Origin: a virus
Virus record (IMG/VR): IMGVR_UViG_3300009152_002590
Span: 1 to 33,454 of that record
Length of the DNA stretch: 33,454 nucleotides
Strand: one strand, 5' to 3'
How positions within the stretch are numbered: the stretch's first letter is position 1; every line of letters begins with the position of its first letter. A program made the position numbers and the translations under genes. Positions 3,906 to 19,475 of the stretch are shown in pieces. The notes below the pieces were generated by a model. That model did not search any database, was not told the origin of the DNA, and saw nothing but the letters and a program-made list of their open reading frames with translations.

Positions 3906-4097
3906 ATGCCGGTGAAATGCCGCTGGCTCAGCGTGGCAATGTCACAATCGTATCAATGGGACGCAATGCGATACCAGGCACTGGGCAGCGATTCACAAAA
4001 CGCTTGCGTTCTTTCGGGCATGACCTGAGTCAGTCAGTCGTTTCCCGACGCTGTGCAGAACTCGGAGGGGGTGTTTGGCTCTCTTTTGTTGCTGTCC
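3906..4097 (+). other. Gap before the portal gene: hairpin, tiny ORF, shared motif
   Basis: This gap holds three things. A hairpin lies at 3919-3937 (GCCGCTG, loop GCT, CAGCGtGGC with one bulged base); no T-run follows, so it is not a standard terminator. A 40-codon frame runs from an ATG at 3906, directly after the previous stop, to a TGA at 4026-4028; its product resembles nothing I know and its status is doubtful. The shared element ending RTGACCTGA, listed separately, overlaps that stop. Confidence 0.4.
4004..4028 (+). promoter_or_regulatory. Candidate phage promoter/operator, copy 1
   Basis: TTGCGT, 11 bases, then TGACCTGA (preceded by A), followed by GTCAGTCAG. The same layout occurs in two other intergenic gaps with a perfect TTGACA hexamer (10778-10802 and 14500-14523). 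This copy lies 69 bases before the portal ATG. No TATAAT-like -10 lies at normal spacing, so the motif may be read by a non-standard sigma factor, a phage RNA polymerase or a repressor. Confidence 0.5.
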
Positions 4098-6191
4098 ATG
4101 CCTCTTCTCCCCACGTCTCCAGTGACCGTGCAACCCGATGTGCTCGCCGCGCTCCGGGCGAAGGCGGCGCTCGTGCGGAAGAAGAAGAAGACGCCGCTGG
4201 AAGATGCTCTCGCCGCGAACGGTGGAGCACATGCGGTGCGGCTGGTGCAGTGGGCGCGCAAGCAACGCTCCGATTATGATGCCGGGCTGGTGCAGTGGCG
4301 GGCAAACCGGCTACGCTGGGCGCAAGAGGCGCAAGATATTTTCGAGCACCGAGCACGTGCCCGCAGGGAGAAGCGAGAACTGGATGACGACGCGGCCAGC
4401 ATCTTCGACCTAGCCAACGACTCGCTTAATGTGGTGGCGTCACTGGCGGAGTTCGCCGCGGCGCAGGCGGAGCAGGATATTTATGGCGGAGAGCCATGGT
4501 TCGCGGCAAACCCTGTAGGCAAGGCTGACAAGAAGCTCGCCGAGGACATCCAGCACCACCTGCAGTGGACATTCCGCGACGGGCGGTTCGTGGATGCGCA
4601 GTGCCTCGGAATCGACCAAGCCGTGACCTTGGGGGAATCGTTCACCAAGACGTATTACGCCGTCGATGTCGATGAATTTGAGGCCACCGTCCCTTGCCTG
4701 CATGCGGATGGGAAGCCGGTGCTGGACGCGAGCGGACAGTACGTGACCACTGATACGCAGGCCCAAGGCCTGAAAATCAAAGGCAAGCTGGAATGGAAGG
4801 ATGCATACCAGACGCAGCAGAACATCATCCGCCAGGGTGTCGAGGCGATGCCGGTCCACTTCAACGACATCAGCTTTCGGGAGGATGCGCCGGAGCTGGA
4901 CCTGCGGCACACGAATGTGTATCTGTCGGTGGAGATGAGCACGTTCGAAGCGATGCGTCGTTTCAATCTCTCGAAAGAGGACGCGATACGCCTAGCACGC
5001 TGCGCCGACACCCGCACTCACACCGACCAAGAAAAACAGCGTGAGCAGACCGCTGACGCCACCGTGACAACCACCCCTGCCGATGAAGCCTTAGGCCAGG
5101 AAGAGGCGCAAAAGCTACTGAACACCCGTGTGAGGCTGATCGAGGGCTACATCCGCGCTGACGCCACGGGGGACGGCAAAGAGGCCCGCATGTGCATCGT
5201 TTTTCCTCCTCACCAAGAGGACTGGATCGTCTGGGGCGACTACCTCGCCAACATCTCGCCCAAGGCTGAGTTGCCGATCAAGTGCGAGGTGTGGGAGCCA
5301 GTGCCGCATCGACTGTATGGCCGGGGATTTTTCTCGAAGTATGCGTATCTGCAGACGGGCACGGACAATCTGTGGAACCAGGTCAGCTTTCGCAATGAGA
5401 TGCACGCCAACCCGCTGACGGCGTTGCATGAGGAGAACCTGCAGATGGATGAGGATGGCGGCAACATGGTCATCGGCCCCGGCAAGACGATTCGCCCGAA
5501 GGCGGGGAAAACGCTGGGAGATTGCATCGAGTTCGCCACCCTCCCAGACGCGGACAACCGCAGCATGGAGCTGCTGAACACGGGGATGCAGATCGCACAG
5601 TTGCGCAGTGGCATCACCAGCGCCAGCCAGGGCGACCTTTCTGCGGTGCCGGAAAACAATACGGCCACCGGCATTCGGGCGCTCATGAGTCGGGCCGCCG
5701 TGCTGCTGAAAAAGCCTATCCGCCGACTGCGCCGCTCCAAAGGTCGCGCATTCAGCTACGCCGTGAAGCTGCACTACGCGAATTTCGACCGTTTGGAGGC
5801 TTTTGTGTGGGGAGAGGGCAACAATCAGGAGATCGTCACCATCACGCCTGATCACATCAAGGATCTCGACATCGACGTGGTGATGCTGCTGACGCAGGAA
5901 CAGAACCAGACCAAGCTGCAAGGCGCACAGGTGATGATGCAGCAACTGCAGGGCTACTCCGGACTGCCAGAGATCGACAAGGCCGGGGCACGCGTCGGCG
6001 TGGTGCAGGCGCTGAAAGCGCTGGAGTTCGCAAACGCCGAGGAAATGGTGCGCCAGCCAGTTGTCAGCATTGAGACCTGCCTGCCCCTCCTGCCGCCCGA
6101 AGAGCAGGTCCGTTTGCAACAAGCCTTGCAGGTCATGCAACAACTCCCACAGCCACCCCAAACAACGATCCCACCGACAACAACACCATGA
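4098..6191 (+). CDS. Phage portal protein
   Basis: A protein of 697 residues, the usual size for podovirus-type portals (the P22 and N4 portals are of similar length). It is highly charged near the N-terminus (KKKKTPLEDA), has a long acidic/helical start, and in the second half carries the features of portal families: LYGRGFFSKYAYLQTGTDNLWNQ, a conserved segment SQGDLSAVPENNTATGI preceding a long helical stretch rich in Arg/Lys (LKKPIRRLRRSKGRAF), and a Gln/Pro-rich C-terminus. Portals form the dodecameric ring at one capsid vertex through which DNA enters and leaves. The ATG at 4098 is preferred; an in-frame GTG at 4053 would add 15 residues, and neither has a good ribosome-binding site. Identification rests on overall pattern and position in a virion block, not on a unique motif. 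Confidence 0.75.
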   Translation: MPLLPTSPVTVQPDVLAALRAKAALVRKKKKTPLEDALAANGGAHAVRLVQWARKQRSDYDAGLVQWRANRLRWAQEAQDIFEHRARARREKRELDDDAASIFDLANDSLNVVASLAEFAAAQAEQDIYGGEPWFAANPVGKADKKLAEDIQHHLQWTFRDGRFVDAQCLGIDQAVTLGESFTKTYYAVDVDEFEATVPCLHADGKPVLDASGQYVTTDTQAQGLKIKGKLEWKDAYQTQQNIIRQGVEAMPVHFNDISFREDAPELDLRHTNVYLSVEMSTFEAMRRFNLSKEDAIRLARCADTRTHTDQEKQREQTADATVTTTPADEALGQEEAQKLLNTRVRLIEGYIRADATGDGKEARMCIVFPPHQEDWIVWGDYLANISPKAELPIKCEVWEPVPHRLYGRGFFSKYAYLQTGTDNLWNQVSFRNEMHANPLTALHEENLQMDEDGGNMVIGPGKTIRPKAGKTLGDCIEFATLPDADNRSMELLNTGMQIAQLRSGITSASQGDLSAVPENNTATGIRALMSRAAVLLKKPIRRLRRSKGRAFSYAVKLHYANFDRLEAFVWGEGNNQEIVTITPDHIKDLDIDVVMLLTQEQNQTKLQGAQVMMQQLQGYSGLPEIDKAGARVGVVQALKALEFANAEEMVRQPVVSIETCLPLLPPEEQVRLQQALQVMQQLPQPPQTTIPPTTTP

Positions 6192-8438: not shown

Positions 8439-8836
8439 AGATGTATGTTCCAGCCTCGAAAGCGAAAGATTTAAGTGCGGCTTTTTTTGGTCTGTCGCGC
8501 CCTCCCGCTGTGAGGATTCCGGGCGAGGTGACAAAATCCCTTTGTCCAGTGAAGCAAGATTTGCGGGGCGACTGGTGGGTGGTTCTCGACGATCAGCGCA
8601 CTGTGTTTGTGAATGAGCAGGCTGACTTGGCCGAGATCACGGTGCTGGTGCAGCCTTTGATCACATCTGGAGTGTTGGCCGCTGACACTCTGGTAATTTT
8701 ACAGAGCAGATTGGATGCGGGGCGGGGCGGAGAGATTAACGTTTTTAACTCTCTGCCAGATGAGATCAAAGCACAGGCCCTTAGTAAACGACAAATGGTG
8801 GAGCAAGGCAAATTGGCTGCGGAGGGGGACCTATGA
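8435..8836 (+). CDS. Hypothetical protein after the spike gene
   Basis: I do not recognise this 133-residue protein. It is soluble, without signal or membrane segment, and has a slightly basic start (MKMYVPASKAKD). It contains a compact middle with GDWWVVLDDQRTVFVNEQAD, which looks like a small beta domain, and a helical C-terminus (LPDEIKAQALSKRQMVEQGKL). It is ATGA-coupled to the fibre gene upstream and to the membrane protein downstream, so it is expressed with both. Position between the tail-fibre gene and the lysis block is where phages often carry fibre assembly or small accessory proteins; that role is a guess. Confidence 0.7.
   Translation: MKMYVPASKAKDLSAAFFGLSRPPAVRIPGEVTKSLCPVKQDLRGDWWVVLDDQRTVFVNEQADLAEITVLVQPLITSGVLAADTLVILQSRLDAGRGGEINVFNSLPDEIKAQALSKRQMVEQGKLAAEGDL
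8821..8828 (+). promoter_or_regulatory. Strong ribosome-binding site for the holin-like gene
   Basis: GGAGGGGG ends four bases before the ATG at 8833, with its GGAGG core at a good distance. This is one of the few clear Shine-Dalgarno sequences in the window and suggests that this gene is translated more strongly than its SD-poor neighbours. Confidence 0.65.
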
Positions 8837-9252
8837 AGATGCCGCTGGACTCGTCGCATTTGGAGCTGCCGTTTTATTTGGCGACGTGTATCCTGGGTGC
8901 GGCAGTGAGTGTGCTGGGGCTGGTGGGGGCGACGGTGGCGGGGTGGTATGTGAGCCTGGTGACGATTGACCCGGCGGAGCTGGCGATCCAACCGCTGCAT
9001 GTGGTGCTGATTGGATTCATTGTGGCGCTGGCGACGTTCATTGTGCTGATTCTGCGCGCGGTGTGGGGGCGGGGGATTGAGACGGTGAATCGGTTCAGCG
9101 CCGCGCTGGATAATCAAGCCGCCGCGATTGACAACCAAGCGAAGCAGATCGCGGATTTGATTGATCTGCAAACCAACCGTGTGGAGAAGCTGGAGGGGCT
9201 GAGCTTTGACGCGCTGCGCACTTCGGCCAGTCACGAAAGGAACCATCATTGA
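8833..9252 (+). CDS. Small membrane protein, candidate holin
   Basis: A protein of 139 residues with two clear membrane segments: about residues 15-41 (LATCILGAAVSVLGLVGATV and onward) and about 57-76 (VVLIGFIVALATFIVLILRAV). They are separated by a short loop with acidic residues. After the second segment comes a soluble helical tail with a repeated ALDNQAAAIDNQAKQI pattern, which could form a coiled coil, and a His at the end. Size, two-helix topology, and location two genes upstream of a lysozyme-like gene suit a class II holin, which permeabilises the inner membrane at lysis. The long soluble tail is larger than in most holins, so a membrane-anchored spanin-like or i-spanin-type partner is another possibility. 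Confidence 0.6.
   Translation: MKMPLDSSHLELPFYLATCILGAAVSVLGLVGATVAGWYVSLVTIDPAELAIQPLHVVLIGFIVALATFIVLILRAVWGRGIETVNRFSAALDNQAAAIDNQAKQIADLIDLQTNRVEKLEGLSFDALRTSASHERNHH
9236..9242 (+). promoter_or_regulatory. Ribosome-binding site that decides a TTG start
   Basis: AAAGGAA ends six bases before the TTG at 9249. For the alternative ATG at 9261 it would be 18 bases away, too far. This favours TTG as the initiator of the next gene. Confidence 0.5.
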
Positions 9253-9716
9253 TCAATACTATGTGGACATTCTTCTCCAAACCCAAGCCCAAACCCTTGG
9301 CCCGCAGTCTGGTGCGCCATGACGCGCTGGAGATGATTCTCAAGCTCGGGCTGCACACGGCTTGGGGCGAGCACACGAAGATCGTGCCGACTGATGAGGC
9401 GTATCTCACCACGACGCGGGAGGAGATCGTCAAGATCGCGAACAAGTCCTGGGTGCCGTGGAAGAAAACGCCCATCGGCGGCGGCATTTGCGAGATTCAA
9501 TGCCTGCGGGTGGTGGTCGGAGCTTACGACTACGCCGTGGCACAAGAGCTTCCGGGCAGGCTGGCGGTGTTTGCGGCCCTGACAGCGGGCGATGCGCCCC
9601 ACGCTTACGTTGTTGCGCTGACCGGCGCGGCGCATGTGGAAGTCTATGAGCAGACCTCCGGCCAGTTCATTGACGAGGATGAGATGGACCTGCCAATCAG
9701 GATTGTTTACGCATGA
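9249..9716 (+). CDS. Unknown protein in the lysis block
   Basis: A protein of 155 residues if it starts at TTG 9249, or 151 from ATG 9261; the ribosome-binding site favours TTG. I do not recognise the family. The N-terminus is basic (SKPKPKPLARSL), then comes LGLHTAWGEHTKIV with TDEAYLTTTREEIVKIA, a CEIQC pair, and a C-terminal half with APHAYVVALTG and HVEVYEQTSG. The order Cys ... His in a beta-rich second half recalls transglutaminase or papain-like folds, but the spacing does not fit a known family and I do not claim an enzyme. It lies between the holin-like and DUF1353 genes with overlaps on both sides, so it probably belongs to lysis or virion completion. Confidence 0.72.
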   Translation: MINTMWTFFSKPKPKPLARSLVRHDALEMILKLGLHTAWGEHTKIVPTDEAYLTTTREEIVKIANKSWVPWKKTPIGGGICEIQCLRVVVGAYDYAVAQELPGRLAVFAALTAGDAPHAYVVALTGAAHVEVYEQTSGQFIDEDEMDLPIRIVYA

Positions 9717-10216
9717 AACGAGAACTTTTCACGCCTGACATTGAGCCAATCAAAGATGCGGATTTTGGCTTTGGCCTTTGGCCTTGGTCACGAGGTCCGA
9801 TGTGGGAGTTGCTGGAGACCTGGGCGTTTACAGTGGATAACGGTGGCTTTGCACGGGTGTATGAGATCCCGGCTGGATACCAGTTTGACAAAGCCAGCGT
9901 GCCTGCGTTTTTCTGGAGCCTGGGATATACGCCGGATGGTCTTTGCACCGTCCCGGCTCTTGAGCACGACTTCCTGTGTGACATCTACTCCGGCGGCTCC
10001 GCATGGCTGCGCGACAAGCTGGGGGTTATTCCCTTGGCTCCGCCTGCGCAAGTGATTCACCGCCATTTTTACGACCAGCTGGTGCGCTGGGGAATGCGGC
10101 CCTCCAAGGCCCGCGTGATGTGGGAAGGTGTTCGCAACTTTGGCCCTGGCGGCCGCCTGCGCCCTTCGTCCTGGTTCAAACGAAAAGCCATTCAACAATC
10201 AACTGAAACACTATGA
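9713..10216 (+). CDS. DUF1353 family protein
   Basis: A protein of 167 residues with the DUF1353 pattern. This is YEIPAGYQFDKASVPAFFWSLGYTPDG in two pieces, then a conserved LEHDFLCD (usually HDYLY or similar), then a helix containing VIHRHFYDQLVRWGM. Such proteins are widespread in phages, often near lysis or tail genes, and their function is unproven; the conserved Asp and His residues suggest metal or substrate binding. It starts ATGA-coupled to the previous gene and is itself coupled to the lysozyme-like gene. The C-terminus is basic (RPSSWFKRKA). The identification is fairly firm, the role is open. Confidence 0.82.
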   Translation: MKRELFTPDIEPIKDADFGFGLWPWSRGPMWELLETWAFTVDNGGFARVYEIPAGYQFDKASVPAFFWSLGYTPDGLCTVPALEHDFLCDIYSGGSAWLRDKLGVIPLAPPAQVIHRHFYDQLVRWGMRPSKARVMWEGVRNFGPGGRLRPSSWFKRKAIQQSTETL

Positions 10217-10761
10217 GCGCACTGGCGGATGTTTATGCGAGGCAGTTTCGGGCATGCAGGATCAAACCGGAGCATGAGCGGGAGGTGCGTGCGCAGGCGG
10301 CGCGGATCATGGTGAGTGTGGAAACGTATGAGAAGGTGGCGGGGCGGTTTCCGGGAATGCCGTGGTGGGTGGTGGGGGTGCTGCACTCGATGGAGTGCAA
10401 TTTGAATTTCAAGCAGCACCTGCACAATGGTGACCCGCTGACGGGGCGGACGGTGCAGGTGCCGAAGGGGCGGCCAGTGGCAGGGAAGCCGCCGTTTGCG
10501 TGGGAGGAGAGTGCAATAGATGCGCTGGTGTGTGACAGGCTGGACCAGGTGAAGGACTGGAGCCCTGGGAATGCGCTGGTGATGCTGGAGAATTACAATG
10601 GGACGGGGTATCGCCGCAAGGGGGTGCCAAGTCCGTATCTGTGGAGCTTCACGGATCAGTATCGCTGTGGGAAGTACACCGCCGATGGTCGCTACGATGC
10701 CCTAGCTGTCAGCAAGCAGTGTGGCTGTGCGGCGCTGCTCAAGGTGCTGATCGAGTATTGA
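10213..10761 (+). CDS. Lysozyme-like protein, candidate endolysin
   Basis: A protein of 182 residues. The segment WWVVGVLHSMECNLNFKQHL with Glu61 resembles the catalytic-Glu helix of lysozyme-fold transglycosylases and muramidases. It is followed by HNGDPLTGRTVQVPKGRP, PPFAWEESAIDAL, LENYNGTGYRR and SPYLWSFTDQY, a motif chain I know from a family of phage and bacterial lysozyme-like proteins often joined to peptidoglycan-binding domains. No such binding domain and no signal peptide are present here, so release would need the holin. It is the last gene of its overlapping cluster. Cleavage of peptidoglycan glycan strands at lysis is the likely role; a virion-associated lysin for DNA entry is the alternative. 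Confidence 0.78.
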   Translation: MSALADVYARQFRACRIKPEHEREVRAQAARIMVSVETYEKVAGRFPGMPWWVVGVLHSMECNLNFKQHLHNGDPLTGRTVQVPKGRPVAGKPPFAWEESAIDALVCDRLDQVKDWSPGNALVMLENYNGTGYRRKGVPSPYLWSFTDQYRCGKYTADGRYDALAVSKQCGCAALLKVLIEY

Positions 10762-10777
10762 TGCTATATTCTGCCAG

Positions 10778-10802
10778 TTGACAGCAGGAAATAGTGACCT
10801 GA
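10778..10802 (+). promoter_or_regulatory. Candidate phage promoter/operator, copy 2
   Basis: Perfect TTGACA at 10778-10783, 11 bases, then TGACCTGA at 10795-10802 preceded by G. It fills the only gap between the lysis block and the IPT/TIG gene and ends 11 bases before the ATG at 10814. A transcript starting at usual distance from TTGACA would have nearly no leader. See copies at 4004-4028 and 14500-14523. Confidence 0.55.
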
Positions 10803-10813
10803 GACGGTAGGGC

Positions 10814-11542
10814 ATGCCAGCGCCCACCGTCACTGCCGTCACACCGAACTCTGCCAGCATCAACGGCGGAGCGGCAGCGACGATCACGGGCACAAACTTC
10901 ACCGGGACAACGGGCGTCACGGTCGGCGGTGTGGCGGCGACTTCGGTCGTGGTGGTAAGTGCGACGCAGATCACCTGCATACTCCCTGCGGCTTCATTGG
11001 GTGTCGCCAGCATCCTCGTCACGAACGCCAGCGGCACGAACGGTGCAAATTCGCTGCTTGTCCTGGTCCCGGCCCCGGCGGTGCCGCTCTACGTCTATCT
11101 CAAAGGTGGCCGGGGTGACGCGCATGTGACGGAAACCTGGAACGGATCAGAGCCGACTGAGGAGGGCACAGTTGACGGCAGCGGCGCGGCGCTGGATGGC
11201 AAGGGTAAAGAGGTGATTCCACCCTACCGCGACATTTTCACGCCGAGTCATCCTGTTAAGTTTCGGAAAACCAATACTACCTCTGGATCTACGGAGCTTG
11301 TGGAGACTTCAACGGAGTTTGTCGGCACGGCAACACCGCAAATCGAGGCCCCGTCGGGCGTTCTTAATTTCGGTCAGGTCACGGCGACTTTAGCCGTAGC
11401 CAATTCCGATGAGCGTCTTCACGTGCCACCCCGCCAAGCCAATGCGGTTTTCACCTGGCTCATCTTCCACGACATCAACGGCGCAATTTACAAAGCGCGT
11501 AAAGACCTCACGATTGGATGGGGGCAGAACCCGCGCCAATAA
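10814..11542 (+). CDS. IPT/TIG-domain virion protein
   Basis: A protein of 242 residues. Residues about 3-86 form an IPT/TIG immunoglobulin-like domain: PTVTAVTPNSASINGGAAAT, then GTNFTGTTGVTVGG, then a run of Val/Ser and ILVTNASG. Such domains decorate tail tubes, capsids and adhesins and often bind carbohydrate. The rest (about 90-242) is unrelated to anything I recognise, contains AHVTETWNGSEPTEEG, and ends in a beta-rich segment VFTWLIFHDINGAIYKARKD. This is the first gene behind a candidate promoter and heads a unit that includes the mucin-like protein and two glycosyltransferases. A role as a virion decoration or tail component is likely. Confidence 0.72.
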   Translation: MPAPTVTAVTPNSASINGGAAATITGTNFTGTTGVTVGGVAATSVVVVSATQITCILPAASLGVASILVTNASGTNGANSLLVLVPAPAVPLYVYLKGGRGDAHVTETWNGSEPTEEGTVDGSGAALDGKGKEVIPPYRDIFTPSHPVKFRKTNTTSGSTELVETSTEFVGTATPQIEAPSGVLNFGQVTATLAVANSDERLHVPPRQANAVFTWLIFHDINGAIYKARKDLTIGWGQNPRQ

Positions 11543-11545
11543 GCC

Positions 11546-12349
11546 ATGCCTTCCATCGGTCCACCACGCTTCAAATGGGAGGAACTGCCATGCACGCCAT
11601 GGAATCAGCTTCGGGCGTTCACGATCTATGTTCCCACCTGCGAGACCGACCAGACAAAAACGCTGCCGTCATTGGGAGTGACGTGGTCGGATTCGCCTGC
11701 ATGGATCAAGAACGTGGAAGCGATCACGGTGCCAGCGCTCAAGACTTACGTGCTCCGCATGCAGACTCAGGCTGGCGAAGGCCGACTATTCACCTATGGG
11801 CCGGTCCTGACGCAAGTTGATCGGGACACGCCGTTTCGTCCGCCCTATCACAAACGTCAGCAGTATTACTGGCCGACCGTGCTGTCAAAGCTCTGGTTCG
11901 AGAGGCACGCGGTTTCTGGTCAGGAGGTGATACTGGATCGCGACAAGCATCGGGTCGGTCAAACCTACCCGACTGTTTTTGAGACGAGGGAATATTTCAG
12001 CGATGTGCCGTGGGATAAGTTGAAATTCTCCAAGCTCTTTCCCATCACGGACACAGTGAGTTGGAACATGGGTAGCAATAAGGGCAGCTTCCCTGAGTGC
12101 CTGCATCCCGATTGCGCATTCCCGAGCCAGCAACTCACCACCACTGGATCGGTGATGTATGGCGCTGGAACGGTCGCCTCGGATGCAGATATTGGATACG
12201 ATTTGGTGCAGCAGCAATATCCAGCCACGCCAATGACCGATTGGGAGAGATACGTCGTGGACGTGCAGACATTCTCCGTCCTGGGAATGTGGCACATGAT
12301 CGAAACCTGGGCACTACCGCCCATTGATGATCGAGAGGTGCAAACGTGA
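11546..12349 (+). CDS. Unknown virion-type protein
   Basis: A protein of 267 residues with no recognisable domain. It is rich in aromatic residues (many Trp, Tyr, Phe) and Pro, with segments such as KRQQYYWPTVLSKLWFERH and FSKLFPITDTVSWNMG. There are four Cys (CTPW, CETD, CLHPDC), and no signal or membrane segment. The composition fits a folded structural protein. It starts three bases after the IPT/TIG gene and its stop overlaps the start of the Thr/Pro-rich gene. It may form a stalk or base for that protein; this is inference from order only. Confidence 0.7.
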   Translation: MPSIGPPRFKWEELPCTPWNQLRAFTIYVPTCETDQTKTLPSLGVTWSDSPAWIKNVEAITVPALKTYVLRMQTQAGEGRLFTYGPVLTQVDRDTPFRPPYHKRQQYYWPTVLSKLWFERHAVSGQEVILDRDKHRVGQTYPTVFETREYFSDVPWDKLKFSKLFPITDTVSWNMGSNKGSFPECLHPDCAFPSQQLTTTGSVMYGAGTVASDADIGYDLVQQQYPATPMTDWERYVVDVQTFSVLGMWHMIETWALPPIDDREVQT

Positions 12350-12972
12350 TGGACACTCCAGCCCAACCACTGGATGTAGTCAGAGGGCCAGGAGCACGCG
12401 ACAATCGCCTGCTCCTGGAGCGGCTTCCTGACGGTGCCCTAAACCTGAAACAGGTGAGCCGCCCGAGTTCGGAGAATGTTGCATTGGGTGAGGCGGCCAC
12501 AACAACCACGCGCCCGCATCCGCAGCTTACGGGGATCCGGCTTGGTCCCGGTGGTAGCGCACGTACCAACGAGTTCACGGTGAATCAGGCTCCCGGCGGC
12601 TCGCTGCTGCTGCGGGGTGTGGTGCGGCCGTCTTCGGAGAATGTGGCACTGCCAACCAGTACAACTACCTCCTCAACCACCACCAGCACGACCACTACGG
12701 CACCGCCAACGACCACTACGCCGCCTCCGACTACTACGACGAGTTCAACCACGACCACCAGCTCTACAACGACCACCAGCTCTACAACGACCACCTCCTC
12801 CACTACCACTACCACTACGCCGCCACCAACAACGACTACGGCACCGCCAACGACCACCACTCTACCTCCAACCACAACGACATCGTCAACAACGACCACC
12901 TCCTCCACGACTACCACGCCTCCCCCCACCACGACCACCCCACCACCAACCACCACCACGCCGCCGCCGTGA
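12349..12972 (+). CDS. Thr/Pro-rich mucin-like virion protein
   Basis: A protein of 207 residues from ATG 12349 (an in-frame GTG at 12346 is also possible). The N-terminal half has two related units of about 38 residues, each ending in RPSSENVAL (about residues 10-46 and 62-101), containing a Leu-rich strand pair. The C-terminal 105 residues are almost only Thr, Ser and Pro, with just two Ala and one Leu, in blocks like TTTTSS and PPPTTTT. That is the composition of O-glycosylated mucin stalks. All Thr codons are mixed (ACA, ACC, ACG, ACT), so the amino-acid sequence itself appears selected rather than a simple DNA slippage. The gene overlaps a glycosyltransferase start (GTGA), which points to glycosylation of this tract. 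Confidence 0.78.
   Translation: MDTPAQPLDVVRGPGARDNRLLLERLPDGALNLKQVSRPSSENVALGEAATTTTRPHPQLTGIRLGPGGSARTNEFTVNQAPGGSLLLRGVVRPSSENVALPTSTTTSSTTTSTTTTAPPTTTTPPPTTTTSSTTTTSSTTTTSSTTTTSSTTTTTTPPPTTTTAPPTTTTLPPTTTTSSTTTTSSTTTTPPPTTTTPPPTTTTPPP
12655..12969 (+). repeat. Thr/Ser/Pro low-complexity tract
   Basis: 105 codons of near-pure Thr, Ser and Pro. At DNA level the strand is A/C-rich with almost no G. One exact tandem duplication of 18 bases lies at 12760-12777 and 12778-12795. Length may vary between isolates. Confidence 0.9.
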
Positions 12973-13676
12973 TTTCCTGCTTATGCCCGACCTATGGAAG
13001 GACCGCTCTGCTTGAGGAAGCGGTTCAGTCGTTCCTGATGCAGGACTACCCCTGCGAGACAGAGCTTGTCATTTGCAATGATCTGCCGTCACAGACCCTC
13101 GTATTTGATCATCCGAGAGTCACTGTGGTGAATCTGCCAGCGCGCTGCGCCAATCTGGGCGAGAAACGAAACGTCACAGCCTCACATGCCAAGGGCAAAT
13201 GGCTCATGACTTGGGGCGACGACGATATTCATTTGCCCTGGCGGATTGGGCGACTGGTCAAGCACATGGAGGCTCAAAACCTCGACTTCTGCCTTGAGGG
13301 ATCACATTTTGTCCTGGATCACCTCGGGCTGCATCGGAAGGAATACTCCACCGGCGGCGCTCACATGGTAAAACGCTCGCTCTTTGAGCAGCTTGGCGGT
13401 ATCTCGCCTCTATCCAGCGGTGAGGACGTTGAGTTCAACGAACGGGTTCGGGCTGCGTTGGGCGAGCTCCCAGAATGCCACGAGCCGCCCGCGTTCATCT
13501 ACCGCTGGCACTCCGACCGCCCGCATGTCTCGGGCTTGAAAGGGGATCACTACAAGGTGTTTGGCGAACTCATCGACAGTCTGATCGCCGCAGGCAAAGA
13601 GCCGCAAGGAACCATTCATCTCCAGCCGCAATGGCGGCAATCATGGATCAATATCGCTTCTTCCTCCAACCTATGA
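12969..13676 (+). CDS. Glycosyltransferase, GT2-like (first of two)
   Basis: A protein of 235 residues with a GT-A fold pattern: ISCLCPTYGRTALLEEAVQS at the N-terminus, an LVICND strand, then WLMTWGDDDIHLPWRI with the metal/UDP-binding DxD motif at residues 84-86. A GEDVEFNERVR segment supplies the catalytic-type acidic pair typical of GT2. No membrane segment is seen. It uses a GTG start (GTGA overlap with the Thr/Pro-rich gene) and is ATGA-coupled to the second glycosyltransferase. By family it transfers a sugar from a nucleotide-sugar in the cytoplasm; acceptor unknown. Tight coupling to the Thr/Ser-rich gene makes that protein a likely acceptor. Modifying host glycans or phage DNA is the alternative. 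Confidence 0.85.
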   Translation: MISCLCPTYGRTALLEEAVQSFLMQDYPCETELVICNDLPSQTLVFDHPRVTVVNLPARCANLGEKRNVTASHAKGKWLMTWGDDDIHLPWRIGRLVKHMEAQNLDFCLEGSHFVLDHLGLHRKEYSTGGAHMVKRSLFEQLGGISPLSSGEDVEFNERVRAALGELPECHEPPAFIYRWHSDRPHVSGLKGDHYKVFGELIDSLIAAGKEPQGTIHLQPQWRQSWINIASSSNL

Positions 13677-14503
13677 AATGCCCTCTCACCATCTCCATGG
13701 CCACGTACGACGACTACGACGGCTGCTATTTCACGATTCAGTCGCTCCGACTGTATCAGCCGTTGCCGGAGGGAACGGAAATCATCGTTCTGGACAACAA
13801 TCCCACAAGCGCACACGGGAAGGCGCTGGAGAATCTTGCCACCAGTGTGCCGGGGTTACGCGTGGTGCCGGTAACCGACCGCAAAAGCAGCTTTGTGAAG
13901 TTCGACATCGTCAAGCATGCGCAGGGTGACGTGATTCTTGGTCTGGACTGCCATGTTTTGCTCCAGCGGGGATTCATTGCGGCGATGATGGAGTATTGGG
14001 CGTCAAATGCGGATTCGACCGACATGCTCACTGGGCCGCTGATTTACAATGATCTGAAATCCCTAAGTGTGAAGATGGAGCCTCGATGGAGAGGCCATGA
14101 CTTCGGGTGCTGGGCCAGCGATGATGAAGCGATGAACGAAGGCGTGCCGTTTCAGGTATGGATGCAGGGCATGGGATGTTTCAGCTTTCTCCGAAAGAAC
14201 TTCCCGGTGATCAATCCCTCTTTTTCCGGCTTCGGTGCTGAGGAGTGGTATGTGGCTGAAAAAGTGCGGCAGAACCGGGGCCGCGTGATGTGCCATCCTG
14301 CAATGGGCTGGAACCATCGTTTTGACTGGCCGCAGCGCACCTTCCCCCTGCGCCTGGCAGACAAAGTGCGGAACTACTACCTCGGCTGGCTCGAACTCTA
14401 TGGCAGCCTGGACCATTCCATGATCGTGGAGATGACAAACCACTGGCGCACGCAGATGCCGGCGGCGGAGTTGGAAGCGGTCATTGCCGCGATAGGCACT
14501 TGA
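13673..14503 (+). CDS. Glycosyltransferase, GT2-like (second of two)
   Basis: A protein of 276 residues that looks like a second, divergent GT-A enzyme. It begins LTISMATYDDYDGCYFTIQS, followed by EIIVLDNNP and a GDVILGLDCHVLL segment in which Asp92-Cys-His94 stands where DxD or DxH is expected. Later come FGAEEWYVAEKV with the acidic pair and a conserved HPAMGWNHRF. It is not a simple copy of the preceding enzyme, so the pair could add two sugars in turn or sugar types of different kind. The start at 13673 is ATGA-coupled; the frame extends upstream inside the first enzyme. It closes the transcription unit, and a candidate promoter overlaps its stop. Confidence 0.8.
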   Translation: MKCPLTISMATYDDYDGCYFTIQSLRLYQPLPEGTEIIVLDNNPTSAHGKALENLATSVPGLRVVPVTDRKSSFVKFDIVKHAQGDVILGLDCHVLLQRGFIAAMMEYWASNADSTDMLTGPLIYNDLKSLSVKMEPRWRGHDFGCWASDDEAMNEGVPFQVWMQGMGCFSFLRKNFPVINPSFSGFGAEEWYVAEKVRQNRGRVMCHPAMGWNHRFDWPQRTFPLRLADKVRNYYLGWLELYGSLDHSMIVEMTNHWRTQMPAAELEAVIAAIGT

Positions 14504-14555: not shown

Positions 14556-15665
14556 ATGCCTGATGAAGCCACACCGACAGCCGTTACCCCAGACGCAGAG
14601 GTAACGCCCGCCTCGAATCCAGCACCAGCTCCCGCCGCTGAAACACCGCAACCACCGGCGACTACCAAGGCGCTGACCCTGGAGGAAGCCATGGAGGCGG
14701 TGGATTTTGGCAAAATGACCGATGCACAGATTTCGGCTTTTGAGAGCGGTGATTTTTCTTCTCTTGGACTGCCCGGCCCGAGTGCGCCAGCGGCACCGGC
14801 CAGCGAAGACGAACCGCCCGCCACTCCACGGAAGGCTGCGCTCGCCGCAGCAACGCCCGAGCAGCTTCGGGAGGCTGGGGAATCCATTCCCAACCGTGTC
14901 TCAATAGCTTCCCTAGCCGCTGAGGATCGGGCGCGCACTGTCCGCGCCTTGGAATTGATCCGTGGAGGCAAGTCTGCCGCGCAAGCCTTCGCCGAAACTT
15001 TCGGCATTACGACCGCCCCAGCGCAAGATGCGACTGAAACCCCTGCCGCCCCAGCCATGCAGCCGGTGCCTGAGGTGCCAAATGAGGTTGCAGACCTGGA
15101 AGGACAACTCGCCGTTCTTCAAAGCAAATACCAGCAGGCCAAGGCTGCGTATGATCCGGCGGCTACCGATTTCTTGGAGCAGATCCAGGATGTGAAGTTC
15201 GACCTGCGTGAAGCCAAGAACCGGGTCGCTTCTGTTGCGGCGCAGTTCGAGACCGAGCAGACCCGGAGCCACCAACGGGTGCTTGACCAGTACTCTGACC
15301 TCATCACTTCAAACCCGCAGTTCTTACCGCTGTGCGATCATGAGATTTCGCTTGCGCAAAAACAGAATGACCCAATCCTTTCGCAACCTGACTGGCCCGA
15401 GAATATCGCCAAGAGGGTTCAATCCAAGTATTTCCAACGCGAGGCCGTGAAGAACGCTGAGCCGAAGAATAGCGAGGCACAACCGATTCCACCCGCCCCG
15501 TCTAATGCGGTGCGACTTCCTGGATCACCCACCGGCCCCGGTTTCGCTGCTGGCACCCTGTCACCACAGGTGGCACAGGCCGAAGTCGATAAGCTGACGC
15601 CCGAGCAAGAAGAGGCTTTCATCAAGGAACTCGACAGGATCACTGCGCCGCCAAGGCGCGCTTAA
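14556..15665 (+). CDS. Scaffold-like head protein upstream of the capsid gene
   Basis: A protein of 369 residues, acidic and rich in Ala, Pro, Glu and Thr, without signal or membrane segment. The first 110 residues are low-complexity (TPASNPAPAPAAETPQPP and similar). A long helical and likely coiled-coil segment lies at about 175-245 (DLEGQLAVLQSKYQQAKAAY ... LREAKNRVASVAAQFE). The C-terminus ends in LTPEQEEAFIKELDRITAPP and basic residues. Lacking conserved motifs, it is placed by composition and position: scaffolding proteins are acidic, helical, disordered, and encoded just before the major capsid gene, as here. It would guide procapsid assembly and leave. Internal head protein is the alternative. 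Confidence 0.65.
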   Translation: MPDEATPTAVTPDAEVTPASNPAPAPAAETPQPPATTKALTLEEAMEAVDFGKMTDAQISAFESGDFSSLGLPGPSAPAAPASEDEPPATPRKAALAAATPEQLREAGESIPNRVSIASLAAEDRARTVRALELIRGGKSAAQAFAETFGITTAPAQDATETPAAPAMQPVPEVPNEVADLEGQLAVLQSKYQQAKAAYDPAATDFLEQIQDVKFDLREAKNRVASVAAQFETEQTRSHQRVLDQYSDLITSNPQFLPLCDHEISLAQKQNDPILSQPDWPENIAKRVQSKYFQREAVKNAEPKNSEAQPIPPAPSNAVRLPGSPTGPGFAAGTLSPQVAQAEVDKLTPEQEEAFIKELDRITAPPRRA

Positions 15666-15727: not shown

Positions 15728-17296
15728 ATGCCTACTTATCACGCAGAATCAATCGTTTCCACATTGGCAGCCGCCGTTGCGGCTGATCCGTCAGTCGTCG
15801 CAAAGGTCTATTCCCAGCAGCTCCGCAAGGGCGCACGCTCGGTGGATGACTTCGCGATGTTCGAGGGCGGCGAAGGCTCCGGCAAGCCATTCATCGTTCG
15901 CAAAGACCTTGCGTCGGCGCAAGCTGGCGATGAAGTCAAATTCACCGTCATGAGCCAGCCTCGCGGCCCCGGAGCGCGGGGCGAGCAACCTCTCCGTGGC
16001 AATGAGTCCAGCGTGGACTTCAAGACCTTCGGCTGTGTGGTGGACTTCTGGCGCGATGCCTTCAAGTTCACCAAGAAGCAGATGAAGTTCATGGCTGCGG
16101 GCGGTGGTGTGAAGTCCGCCGTGCTGCTGGCCCTGCGTGAAAAGCTGGGTCGCCGCCGCATGAACGACATGAAGATGGCCCTCAAGCTCCAGACCTCGGG
16201 CAACATCATCTACCCGAATGGGCGCAAGACCCTGGCCAGCCTCAATGCGCTGGACACGCTGACGCCTTCCGGCATCACCAATGCCATCCCGCAGTGGCGG
16301 CGTCTCGGTGGCCGCAGCATTGTGGTGACGAGCAAGCACGGCAGCCCGGTGTACAAGCCGATGGTGTACATTCCTGATGCGGCCATCGCCAGCATCAAGA
16401 ACTCCTCCAGCTACGAGCAGGCGGCGATGCATGGTGGAGCCAAGAGCAACGAGGAAAACCCGCTCTTCTCCGGCAAGCTGCTGGACTGGAACGGCGTGGG
16501 CCTCTTTGAGCATGCGTCCGTCGATCCTGAGAACGACCAGTGCGCCGATCCGCTGGCACCGCGTGCAACGCTCTCGACTGGGTTCGGGGTGGATTCTGCC
16601 GTCGGTTCCTGCGTCCTCAAGAGCCATGCCACCGACACTAAGACGCCTTACATGGCATGGATGGGCGGCTACGCCTATGAGTGGTATGAGGGCCAGACAA
16701 CGAAGGATGCGACCTGGATCGCCTTCTACGCCGCGCTGGCTGCTGCCACTTACTACGGCTGGGTCATCAATCCCGATGGCTCTGTCGGTTTTGTGAGCTG
16801 GCTGGGCTCTGCGAACGACGGGAACAAGATCACGGTGAACGCGATCCTGAACCCGGACAACACGAACGACGCTTCCACACTTGGTGTAGCGACGCTGGGC
16901 AACTTCATCGCTACCGGGGATTCCTGGGGCCTGAACACCGCTGGTAATGCCTACACACGCGCCGCAGGGGGCACAGGTGCCACATCCAACTGCTCGCCGG
17001 ACTTTGTCTGGACCTCGGAGTTTGATGCGGGTGCCTACATCATCCCATGCAACGCCAATGGCGCTGTGGACATGTGCAGCCTGATTCTCGGGCAGGAAAG
17101 CGCCGTGCGCTGCTATGCGCAGGACGACCTCCTCGTGGGCGACAAGGACGATTACTCCTTCGTCGATGGTGGCGGCTATGAAACCGTCTTTGGTCAGGCC
17201 CCGTGCATCCGCACGGATGGCAAGACCAGCGGCTACTCCTTGCTGCGTCATGCCGGTCAGCACCCCGGCCTCGAAGTGCCCACTCTGAGCGCCTAA
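15728..17296 (+). CDS. Major capsid protein, N4-gp56 / DUF4043-like
   Basis: A protein of 522 residues. The first 120 residues carry the pattern of the N4-gp56 and DUF4043 capsid families: GSGKPFIVRKDLASAQAGDE, then VKFTVMSQPRGPGARGEQPL, RGNESSVDFKTFG and a helical DFWRDAFKFTKKQM. This corresponds to the N-arm and E-loop side of the HK97 fold. It is longer than N4 gp56 (about 400 residues); the extra part is probably the Gly/Ala/Asn-rich insertion in about residues 305-430, which could be a surface domain. It follows the scaffold-like gene and is followed by a strong terminator, as expected for the most expressed phage gene. The start ATG lacks a Shine-Dalgarno sequence. Confidence 0.8.
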   Translation: MPTYHAESIVSTLAAAVAADPSVVAKVYSQQLRKGARSVDDFAMFEGGEGSGKPFIVRKDLASAQAGDEVKFTVMSQPRGPGARGEQPLRGNESSVDFKTFGCVVDFWRDAFKFTKKQMKFMAAGGGVKSAVLLALREKLGRRRMNDMKMALKLQTSGNIIYPNGRKTLASLNALDTLTPSGITNAIPQWRRLGGRSIVVTSKHGSPVYKPMVYIPDAAIASIKNSSSYEQAAMHGGAKSNEENPLFSGKLLDWNGVGLFEHASVDPENDQCADPLAPRATLSTGFGVDSAVGSCVLKSHATDTKTPYMAWMGGYAYEWYEGQTTKDATWIAFYAALAAATYYGWVINPDGSVGFVSWLGSANDGNKITVNAILNPDNTNDASTLGVATLGNFIATGDSWGLNTAGNAYTRAAGGTGATSNCSPDFVWTSEFDAGAYIIPCNANGAVDMCSLILGQESAVRCYAQDDLLVGDKDDYSFVDGGGYETVFGQAPCIRTDGKTSGYSLLRHAGQHPGLEVPTLSA

Positions 17297-17355: not shown

Positions 17356-18192
17356 ATGAAGCCCAATACCACACTGCCCGCCCGTGTCGATTCTGCGATG
17401 CTGGCCAAGTACCGTCAAGACGGTGAGCCCGTCATCATCCTGAAGCTGATCGGCGTCGGGAACACTGCATTGTTCGATTTCCGCGACAAAGGGACACGGT
17501 CCTACGTCTTCCGCTTTGATTCCACTTTCGGCGGCCACATCATCCGCATCCCGCTGAGCCTATGGCAGGCAAACAAGGGTCAGATGGCCCATGACATCAT
17601 GGATCAGCGACGCACGACGCAAACCATGATCGTGCTGGTGGAGATGCCGACTCCAGCCCCAATTGAGCAGCCAAGCCTCACAGAGCCTTTGACTGCAACC
17701 AATGCAGGCGATGCGCAATTCACCATCGACTGCATCAAGGCTACTATCGCATCATACAAGGATAGCGATAACTCAAACGCTGAGGAGAGTTTGCGGGAGT
17801 GCCTGGATCGCATCAGCAATGCAGTCTCTGGCACCATTACCGCCCCTGCCAGCACTCCAGAATCCCCCCAAATGGGCGCAACGGACACGAGCGCAGAAGT
17901 CCGAAACGTGGTTGGGCCGGATGATGTGCCGACCGTTGCGCCCGCCTCTTCTCCTTCCAACGAAACCACGGCAGATGACGGCAGCCAGCACATGGTTGGT
18001 GACGTGCATCTGTTTCAGGCTGCTTACGACCTTGTCGAGTCGCCAAAACGGCTCAAGGCGCTGGCAGCCCTGCTCGGCGTTGAAGAAACGCCGCTGCGTG
18101 AAGCCATCGGATGCCCGATGTCCAAGGTCGAACTCGTCACCGCTGGCTGGGTTCGCCGCAAGGAATCCACCTCAACCCCAACCGCCCCATGA
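17356..18192 (+). CDS. Unknown protein after the capsid gene
   Basis: A protein of 278 residues starting just behind the terminator T-run, without a Shine-Dalgarno sequence. The N-terminal 95 residues (VDSAMLAKYRQDGEPVIILK ... FGGHIIRIPLSLWQANKG) look like a small beta domain. A Pro/Ala/Thr/Ser-rich linker follows at about 100-215, and a helical C-terminal domain contains LFQAAYDLVESPKRLKALA. I do not recognise either domain. Small proteins with N-terminal beta domain and linker are common as capsid decoration or head-tail components, but this is only position-based. Its stop overlaps the GroES-like gene start by ATGA. Confidence 0.72.
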   Translation: MKPNTTLPARVDSAMLAKYRQDGEPVIILKLIGVGNTALFDFRDKGTRSYVFRFDSTFGGHIIRIPLSLWQANKGQMAHDIMDQRRTTQTMIVLVEMPTPAPIEQPSLTEPLTATNAGDAQFTIDCIKATIASYKDSDNSNAEESLRECLDRISNAVSGTITAPASTPESPQMGATDTSAEVRNVVGPDDVPTVAPASSPSNETTADDGSQHMVGDVHLFQAAYDLVESPKRLKALAALLGVEETPLREAIGCPMSKVELVTAGWVRRKESTSTPTAP

Positions 18193-18524
18193 ATTCACCT
18201 GGAATCCACCCGTTGACCAATCATCTCCTGCTCGATGTCACTCCGCAGGAGCAAACCACCGCCGCAGGCATCGTCCTACCCACTGCCGTGCAGGGTGCCA
18301 GCACGCGCATGGAGGCCGTCATCGTCGGGCGCGGGCCTGACTGCACGCGCCCGCAGCTCACCTGCGGCACTCAGGTGTATGTGGGCCGTTACGCCAGCAG
18401 CGAGCTCATGCGCGGCGGACGTAGCTACAGGCTTGCACTGGAGACAGACATCATCGCCACGCTTGATGTCGTGGGTGCAAGCCTGCCACCGCCGACCGTG
18501 ATGCCCATTCACCCTGGACTCTAA
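18189..18524 (+). CDS. Phage GroES-like co-chaperonin (Cpn10)
   Basis: A protein of 111 residues with the Cpn10 pattern: HPLTNHLLLDVTP (as RPLxDRVLV in GroES), then a mobile-loop segment AAGIVLP with the hydrophobic IVL at residues 28-30 that contacts GroEL. These are followed by EAVIVGRG, GTQVYVGRYASSELM and the closing ETDIIATLD (as ESDILAIVE in GroES). By family it caps the host GroEL ring to fold substrate proteins. T4 gp31 and RB49 CocO are the known phage examples, and gp31 is needed to fold the T4 capsid protein. Placed two genes after the major capsid gene and ATGA-coupled upstream, it is most likely for folding that capsid protein. No GroEL gene is visible, so it would use the host ring. 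Length matches the family (about 95-110). Confidence 0.9.
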   Translation: MNSPGIHPLTNHLLLDVTPQEQTTAAGIVLPTAVQGASTRMEAVIVGRGPDCTRPQLTCGTQVYVGRYASSELMRGGRSYRLALETDIIATLDVVGASLPPPTVMPIHPGL

Positions 18525-18530
18525 CCGCTC

Positions 18531-19475
18531 ATGACCATTCGGGATGTTGCACAAAGCATGCTGTCCTACCTCCGGGCTGAGCAGCGCGGCATCCCCTACG
18601 GTGGCGACACGGCTTACACCGACCCACTGCCGGATGTCGTTGCCTCAATCAATTCGGCCTTGCAGCGCATGGCGGTGTTCGCGCCCCTGTTCGCCACCAA
18701 GCAGCAGCGGAGCGCCTACTTCCGTGCGCCGTCCACGCTGGCCGTGACTGGGCTGACACGGGGCGGCATGACCGCGACAGGTGCTTTTCCTGCATGGTCT
18801 GCGGGCTGCTGGGTGCAACTGCCAGGCGATGCGGCGATGAACCGCATTCTGTCGATCACAGGCACGACGGCAACGCTGCAGTTCCCCCATTTGTCTGACA
18901 GCGCGGCAGGCACCGCCACAATCAACGTGGATACCGTGGAGCTTGATGCGGATGTGATCACCGTGCTGGAGCCGGTGAGATACCGCAACAGCCGGTGCAA
19001 AGTCCGTGCTGCACAGAATCGGGAAGAACTCGCGCAGCCATGCGGGGAGGCGCGGTATTTCATCGAAACCGCGAACTCCAATGGCGGGGTGCGGCATCGC
19101 ATGATGGTGTCTGGCTACGTGTCGGAAGATACCGTTTTCGAGTTTCAGGCGCGGGTGGCTGCACGGCACATCACCCTGGCCGATGTCTATACAGACACCA
19201 GCGGTTATCCCGACCCCGGCGTGCCAGTGCCGGTGCCTGCACAGTTCGTGGAGTCTATTTTCCTCCCGCTGGCGATGGATGATTTCTTTGCCACGCCATC
19301 CGTGGTGAACTACGACGTTGCCGGCCTGCGCAATCAAGATGCTCCCAAACTGATCCGCGAACAGGCGCAGACCGCGTTGGCGATGCTGGAGAAGATGAGG
19401 CCGCAGGGAAGTAAGCCGGTCAGCCTTTGGCCAGCCTTTGGTGGCTTGAGCCGCCGCACTTCGCATTGGTGGTGA
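18531..19475 (+). CDS. Unknown virion-type protein, last gene of the + block
   Basis: A protein of 314 residues. It begins with a helical segment (IRDVAQSMLSYLRAEQRG), then PDVVASINSALQRM, which resembles the N-terminus of phage head-tail connector or adaptor proteins (the region where they meet the portal). The middle is beta-rich with short Thr/Ala repeats, and it ends with a helical QAQTALAMLEKMRPQG. No family can be named with confidence. Location after the capsid and the GroES-like gene supports a head-completion or tail-adaptor role. It stops at 19475 and is followed by the convergent gap. Confidence 0.7.
   Translation: MTIRDVAQSMLSYLRAEQRGIPYGGDTAYTDPLPDVVASINSALQRMAVFAPLFATKQQRSAYFRAPSTLAVTGLTRGGMTATGAFPAWSAGCWVQLPGDAAMNRILSITGTTATLQFPHLSDSAAGTATINVDTVELDADVITVLEPVRYRNSRCKVRAAQNREELAQPCGEARYFIETANSNGGVRHRMMVSGYVSEDTVFEFQARVAARHITLADVYTDTSGYPDPGVPVPVPAQFVESIFLPLAMDDFFATPSVVNYDVAGLRNQDAPKLIREQAQTALAMLEKMRPQGSKPVSLWPAFGGLSRRTSHWW

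Follow-up and report, generated by a model that had tools for sequence, protein, structure and literature searches.

A predicted GroES-like co-chaperonin tied to the capsid gene of a Verrucomicrobiota phage and of a candidate gene transfer agent

The window analyzed here, a linear stretch of 33.5 kb (IMG/VR virus record IMGVR_UViG_3300009152_002590, positions 1 to 33,454), contains a gene that, judged from its sequence, encodes a true GroES-like co-chaperonin (Cpn10) and is tied in position to a phage capsid gene. The reading that we favor, and hold to be probable with some reserve, is that the protein serves specifically as a GroEL lid for head proteins and has been retained in two settings, a phage and a candidate verrucomicrobial gene transfer agent (GTA). 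The cpn10 gene would belong to a five-gene head cassette (scaffold, capsid, P0003, cpn10, and gp18531) that is part of a Verrucomicrobiota phage lineage, represented by the window. The same cassette would be fixed and vertically inherited in Verrucomicrobiaceae chromosomes, with terminase and portal/lysis/fiber genes of the same ancestry at separate loci.

The co-chaperonin gene and its place beside the capsid gene

The ATG of cpn10 overlaps the stop codon of the preceding gene (ATGA), and the start methionine is common to the homologs. The protein scored 33.8 bits (E 3.6e-8) against Pfam Cpn10 (PF00166; curated cutoff, 21.1) and matched PHROG 3188, "co-chaperonin GroES" (E 1.7e-8), and a phmmer search of the PDB returned Cpn20 (E 1.7e-11) and the 10-kDa chaperonin 3nx6 (E 3.9e-7). 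The IVL of the mobile loop, a hydrophobic tripeptide, occupies residues 28 to 30; the motif reads GIVL in the window, and the two relatives farthest from it have GIYL and GIFL. An AlphaFold model of the protein had a pLDDT of 48, too poor for use. On the strength of the Pfam, PHROG, and PDB matches and the GIVL motif, we confirm an earlier note on this DNA that described a Cpn10 with an IVL mobile loop two genes after the capsid gene.

The capsid protein scored 24.8 bits against PF13252 (Phage_capsid_3), barely above the cutoff of 23, and matched the PHROG 334 major head protein at E 3.8e-11. Its Gly/Ala/Asn-rich stretch is the most indel-rich region of the capsid alignment, and its AlphaFold model (pLDDT 33) was too poor for use. 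A tblastn search of annotated phages with the capsid gave no match, and no isolate of the phage collection has a recognizable relative. The window resembles phage SU10 and the N4-gp56 families in matching the SU10 portal profile and the PF13252 capsid profile, although the capsid match lies only just over the cutoff. The scaffold candidate had no family match, and P0003 occurs in cassettes both with and without cpn10. Upstream of the cassette, the protein encoded at 12346-12972 ends in Thr/Pro/Ser runs (TTTTSSTTTT and TTTTPPP), a low-complexity, glycosylation-like tail, and its gene directly precedes two glycosyltransferase genes. Features of the window are collected in Table 1.

Table 1. Features of the window, in order of position
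Feature	Position	Strand	Basis or remark
Portal protein, SU10 type	4053..6191	+	PF23899, 85.7 bits
Small membrane protein	8833-9252	+	In block 8833..12349
Lysozyme-like gene	10213-10761	+	In block 8833..12349
TIG-domain protein	10814-11542	+	In block 8833..12349; TIG domain found
Last gene of block 8833..12349	11546-12349	+	Homologs travel with portal
Glycosyltransferase-2	13652..14503	+	68% homolog in genome G012
Probable scaffold protein, first cassette gene	14556..15665	+	Position, composition; upstream of capsid in all relatives
Major capsid protein, N4-gp56/Phage_capsid_3 type, 522 aa, 55.4 kDa	15728..17296	+	PF13252, PHROG 334
Cassette gene P0003, between capsid and cpn10	17356..18192	+	Alignment; N- and C-terminal ends conserved
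Cpn10/co-chaperonin gene	18189..18524	+	111 aa, 11.7 kDa; ORF, coordinates, and strand verified
Mobile loop, residues 19-36, GIVL	18243..18296	+	Aligned to GroES 16-33; GroES-length
Shortened roof segment, residues 48-59, 12 residues	18330..18365	+	Alignment
C-terminal tail beyond Cpn10 domain, fast evolving	18465..18521	+	Conservation 0.61 versus 0.81 in body
gp18531, possible connector, last cassette gene	18531..19475	+	Alignment; conserved in all relatives
Polyvalent protein, 4563 aa	19728..33419	-	Strawberry-notch helicase and PolyVal kinase domains; strand opposite structural genes

A capsid-guided scan yielded eight virus contigs. In all six that bear cpn10 (L001, L003, L005, L007, L008, and L009), it is the second gene downstream of the capsid gene, L007 and L008 carrying identical copies; L002 and L004 stop before the cpn10 position. 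Together with the chromosomal loci described below, the coupling in position that had been proposed is true of every cpn10-bearing relative found. A group of ten bacterial genomes in the capsid tree has the window and two short virus contigs, L001 and L002, next to it or within it. From this placement, L001 and other short IMG/VR records may be pieces of chromosome, and the window may be a phage whose genes are shared with chromosomal sets or exchanged with them. The "viral" contigs L001 (3300019776_001069) and L002 (3300010885_081135) may both be bacterial chromosome.

Cassette and dispersed loci in Verrucomicrobiaceae chromosomes

A genome scan with the capsid alignment identified ten Verrucomicrobiota MAGs, three of them titled Prosthecobacter. 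At nine of the ten scanned loci, the matches to the window were scaffold, capsid, P0003, cpn10, and gp18531 only, up to the contig end; at the tenth (L024 in G017), whose capsid is 58% identical, cpn10 is missing from its place between P0003 and gp18531. A contiguous prophage in the MAGs was considered and rejected, as only the five cassette genes matched. None of the integrase matches of four genomes lay on a cassette contig. Among the ten main Verrucomicrobiaceae genomes, cpn10 is the second gene after the capsid in nine, the contig of G015 ending first. The capsids of the chromosomal cassettes are 82 to 93% identical to that of the window. In this main group the cassette has a single conserved locus, where it stands by itself with host genes on both sides: those for an ArsA ATPase, ArsD, and an esterase upstream and a common 466-aa gene downstream.

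The remaining head and packaging genes lie elsewhere. All 15 capsid-bearing genomes have one close terminase relative (49 to 66% to the L008 phage), located apart from the capsid; in the main group this solitary terminase adjoins H+-PPase, TonB, ExbB, and ExbD genes, making a conserved second locus. A third locus holds the portal, lysozyme-like, TIG-domain, and other genes (portal/lysis/fiber block), with the phage order kept. The portal occurs as a single-copy homolog in 8 chromosomes, 78 to 83% identical to that of the window, and homologs of the block at 8833..12349 accompany it.

The separation can be read within single contigs. One 145-kb contig of G012 carries the terminase at 42 kb and the cassette at 108 to 113 kb, 64 kb apart, with RND, TolC-type, TetR, LysR, and ABC-transporter genes between them, and the glycosyltransferase-2 homolog is on the same contig. 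In G068 as well, terminase and cassette share a contig with host genes between. The 8.2-Mb single contig of G076 has the terminase at 6.745, the portal at 6.852, and the capsid at 6.874 Mb, terminase and portal thus being 107 kb apart. Overall, the loci are 64 to 107 kb or more from each other. Most hosts are MAGs with many contigs, which leaves some room for the dispersal to be an assembly or binning artifact of MAGs containing a window-like free phage. We regard this as extremely improbable: the contigs of G012, G068, and G076 just described argue against it, as do identical flanking host genes in independent assemblies and a correlation between host distances and gene-set distances (see below).

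Genome G074 differs: a single contig has the genes for capsid, portal, polyvalent protein, and terminase together in a stretch of about 31 kb, and this compact arrangement may be the ancestral state. G074 is also the exception with respect to the polyvalent protein, a phage-side gene of which the ten main genomes had no full homolog at their mapped chromosomal loci. The loci differ between the three host sub-clades, so that single and repeated domestication are both possible.

Shape of the lid and the heads that carry one

In a single alignment, the loop segment comprises 26 residues in the window Cpn10, host GroES, and Escherichia coli GroES and 30 in T4 gp31, and the roof segment comprises 12 residues in the window Cpn10 and gp31, 17 in E. 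coli GroES, and 18 in host GroES. The gp31 protein is described as lacking roof loops and having longer mobile loops, which makes its cage larger and more open (PMC6318259). With a roof as short as that of gp31 and a mobile loop of GroES length, the window Cpn10 has one of the two gp31 traits; in loop length, the comparison that the earlier note proposed, it matches GroES and not gp31. The cellular GroES profile NF011106 (91 positions) aligned to the window roof without gaps; since there is no length difference, short-roofed cellular GroES proteins probably exist, and a reduced roof is probably not exclusive to gp31-type co-chaperonins.

The loop TAAGIVLPTAVQGAST is the same in the window, L001, L003, and L005, and the whole proteins from these contigs are 58 to 78% identical to that of the window. 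Loop conservation exceeded that of random column sets (P 0.002 with 14 sequences; 0.005 minus the two most distant), although 6 to 9 of 71 sliding windows reached the loop's score. Across Cpn10 alignments, the GroEL-binding residues and the loop are conserved while the tail varies, and relatives gave cpn10 dN/dS values of 0.14 to 0.46 against the window copy. The window protein resembles T4 gp31 (and RB49 CocO) as a phage-side Cpn10 of 111 aa with a 12-residue roof and a presumed capsid use. It differs from gp31 in its GroES-length loop, that of gp31 being longer (PMC6318259), in being a clear Pfam Cpn10 match, and in its location inside a capsid cassette, the neighbors of T4 gene 31 being non-head genes.

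Phage co-chaperonins shown by experiment are T4 gp31 and RB49 CocO (PMC9598537). The earlier note took these two as the known cases, which proved too narrow. An E. coli GroES query matched 90 phage-collection records, a few being bacterial contigs, and a host-type GroES query matched 43. GroES lies ∼2 kb upstream of a ∼300-codon capsid gene in CRP-901, HTVC027P, Pag-Yong1, DSL-LC04, ct2G2228, and 023Pt_psg01, and less than 2 kb after a head gene of ∼670 to 690 codons in Shewanella phage 1/44 and Vibrio phage 1.049.O. In Xanthomonas phage PBR31 it is two genes before the terminase, and in Vibrio phage D93 and T4 it does not adjoin head genes. Phage GroES is not rare, and the placements across unrelated phages indicate that a position in the head module is recurrent and independent of capsid size. 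Podoviruses of the Pam1/CRP-901 type (CRP-901, HTVC027P, Pag-Yong1, and DSL-LC04) and Shewanella phage 1/44 are like the window in having GroES in the head module. They are unlike it in capsid type and in gene order, GroES being upstream, between the portal and a ∼300-aa capsid, in the former and four genes after a ∼690-aa head-protease fusion in the latter.

Closer to the window, five genomes (G017, G031, G036, G074, and G076) have cassettes with 503- to 526-aa capsids and no cpn10 in the cassette or elsewhere, with a single GroES per genome. All cpn10-bearing rows group in a single clade of the capsid tree (98/95), and one gain of cpn10 at its base would be the simplest reading. The cpn10-less sister lineages show that the head can be built without cpn10. 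In G074, a 203-aa open reading frame (G074:C129:67906-68517; L082) occupies the place of cpn10 between P0003 and gp18531.

These relatives bear on the suggestion that the large capsid protein (522 residues) may need a wider cage. Size as the reason is not supported, given equally large sister capsids without cpn10 and podoviruses with ∼300-aa capsids that have GroES; on the same grounds capsid size was rejected as a general rule for cpn10, and size alone does not decide its presence. The wider cage itself fared better in one respect, the roof having 12 rather than 17 to 18 residues, although the mobile loop is of GroES length; the argument from a large capsid to a wider cage is weak. The presence and absence of cpn10 beside similar capsids is a natural experiment on the need of phage heads for a GroEL lid of their own, a question so far tied to T4.

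A different role for the co-chaperonin would be to redirect or relieve host GroEL generally while particles are being produced, in stress help or take-over, and not to fold the capsid specifically. Equally large sister capsids without cpn10 imply that the capsid fold is not strictly dependent on it, and host GroES was present in every host genome searched. Nevertheless, cpn10 stays in the capsid cassette after terminase and portal have become unlinked, and in the window it overlaps the preceding gene; both features suggest a product used together with the head proteins, and we consider a general role unlikely. Most likely, the Cpn10 serves its own head proteins as a GroEL lid, in the manner of gp31. 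We infer that it binds GroEL and acts on a head-protein substrate: seven copies would cap the host GroEL ring via the GIVL loop, replacing host GroES or acting beside it, and under this lid the head proteins encoded in the cassette, with the 55-kDa capsid protein as the likeliest client, would fold and assemble. Like that of T4 gp31, the lid may be more open because of its shortened roof.

Inheritance, selection, and a candidate gene transfer agent

Of the 68 family genomes, 15 contain the capsid gene; these and no others contain the terminase, and 13 of them have the portal as well. The probabilities of chance coincidence are ∼2e-15 and 3e-12 for independent draws, relatedness making the true figure less extreme. 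The two missing portals are likely assembly gaps, the hosts being mostly MAGs with many contigs. An order-level capsid search found 19 of 387 genomes, the 15 known and four distant matches. An encapsulin-like compartment, i.e., a capsid without DNA-packaging genes, was dropped as a candidate in view of the terminase and portal counts.

Purifying selection acts on the chromosomal genes for head, portal, and terminase. Median dN/dS values in ten hosts were 0.09 for terminase, 0.17 for portal, 0.15 for capsid, 0.20 for cpn10, 0.16 for gp18531, and 0.31 for both scaffold and P0003, computed on stop-to-stop frames that would miss in-frame stop breaks; neighboring host genes gave 0.06 to 0.30. The ATPase and nuclease motifs of the terminase are intact except in G014, where the terminase (G014:C62:4891-6609; one of ten) has an in-frame TAG, due to a sequencing error or a broken copy.

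The genes also diverged with their hosts. Mantel correlations with rpoB distances were 0.82 for terminase, 0.77 for portal, 0.75 for capsid, 0.65 for cpn10, and 0.90 for gp18531 (rho; p 0.001 to 0.02), and the capsid groups equal the rpoB groups, namely, G074 with G076, G017 with G031 and G036, and the ten main genomes. Distances at the host groE locus correlated neither with the gene set nor with rpoB; as the groE locus does not follow rpoB, the latter was taken as the host clock.

These data weigh against the rival interpretation of an ordinary phage GroES for head assembly, with the chromosomal copies being decaying, functionless pieces of prophage. In its favor, several unrelated lineages carry GroES near head genes, and the gene set of G074 is compact. 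Decay, however, is at odds with open head, portal, and packaging genes under purifying selection (dN/dS 0.09 to 0.31), conserved loci, unlinked genes in the same genomes, and co-divergence with rpoB, and we assign this interpretation a low probability.

A chromosomal set that is maintained could also make some phage-derived particle other than a GTA, for instance a killer particle filled with DNA, like PBSX, or a protein compartment. The cassette alone, with scaffold, capsid, and chaperonin, resembles a compartment kit. Co-inheritance of terminase and portal with the capsid and the intact nuclease motifs instead favor DNA packaging. PBSX-like elements are contiguous, unlike the chromosomal set, which is spread over at least three loci. 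Such a particle therefore seems to us quite improbable.

We thus return to a GTA. The genomic parts of the GTA definition comprise phage-derived proteins, location at several loci, and vertical inheritance (PMC9662315), and the chromosomal set fits this genomic half. Capsid, portal, and terminase are the caudoviricete-derived proteins; endogenization is full, often at several loci by that definition and here at at least three among host genes; and vertical inheritance with host co-diversification is seen in the rho values of 0.65 to 0.90 and the matching main groups (PMC9662315). The definition further describes agents that package mostly random host DNA, deliver it to other cells, and cannot fully package the genes that encode them (PMC9662315). 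Particle formation and DNA packaging are what we infer for the set. We regard the chances as evenly balanced that Verrucomicrobiaceae possess a GTA derived from an SU10/N4-gp56-type podovirus and encoded at three or more loci, in one sub-clade of which the capsid cassette gained a dedicated, roof-shortened GroES.

Such an agent would resemble RcGTA-type GTAs in its caudoviricete-derived head, portal, and terminase genes, its several chromosomal loci, and its vertical inheritance (PMC9662315). It would differ in belonging to another phylum, in its SU10/N4-gp56-type podovirus genes, and in having its own co-chaperonin. GTAs have been genetically characterized in few bacterial groups, in three major clades (PMC9662315), and we found no GTA of Verrucomicrobiota in the literature searched. 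If the dispersed set makes particles, it would add a new phylum for GTAs and another independent exaptation.

Two other regions of G012 are of note. The first (G012:C56:903-5727; L097) has a second, distant terminase (26 to 29% identical) and a portal (26%), probably from another phage of a related type. The second (G012:C9, ∼80 to 103 kb; L057 and L058) has very large minus-strand open reading frames with the common start MPPPP(C/S)GHASAM next to the ArsA gene, and one of them showed a weak 77-aa match to the polyvalent protein of the window.
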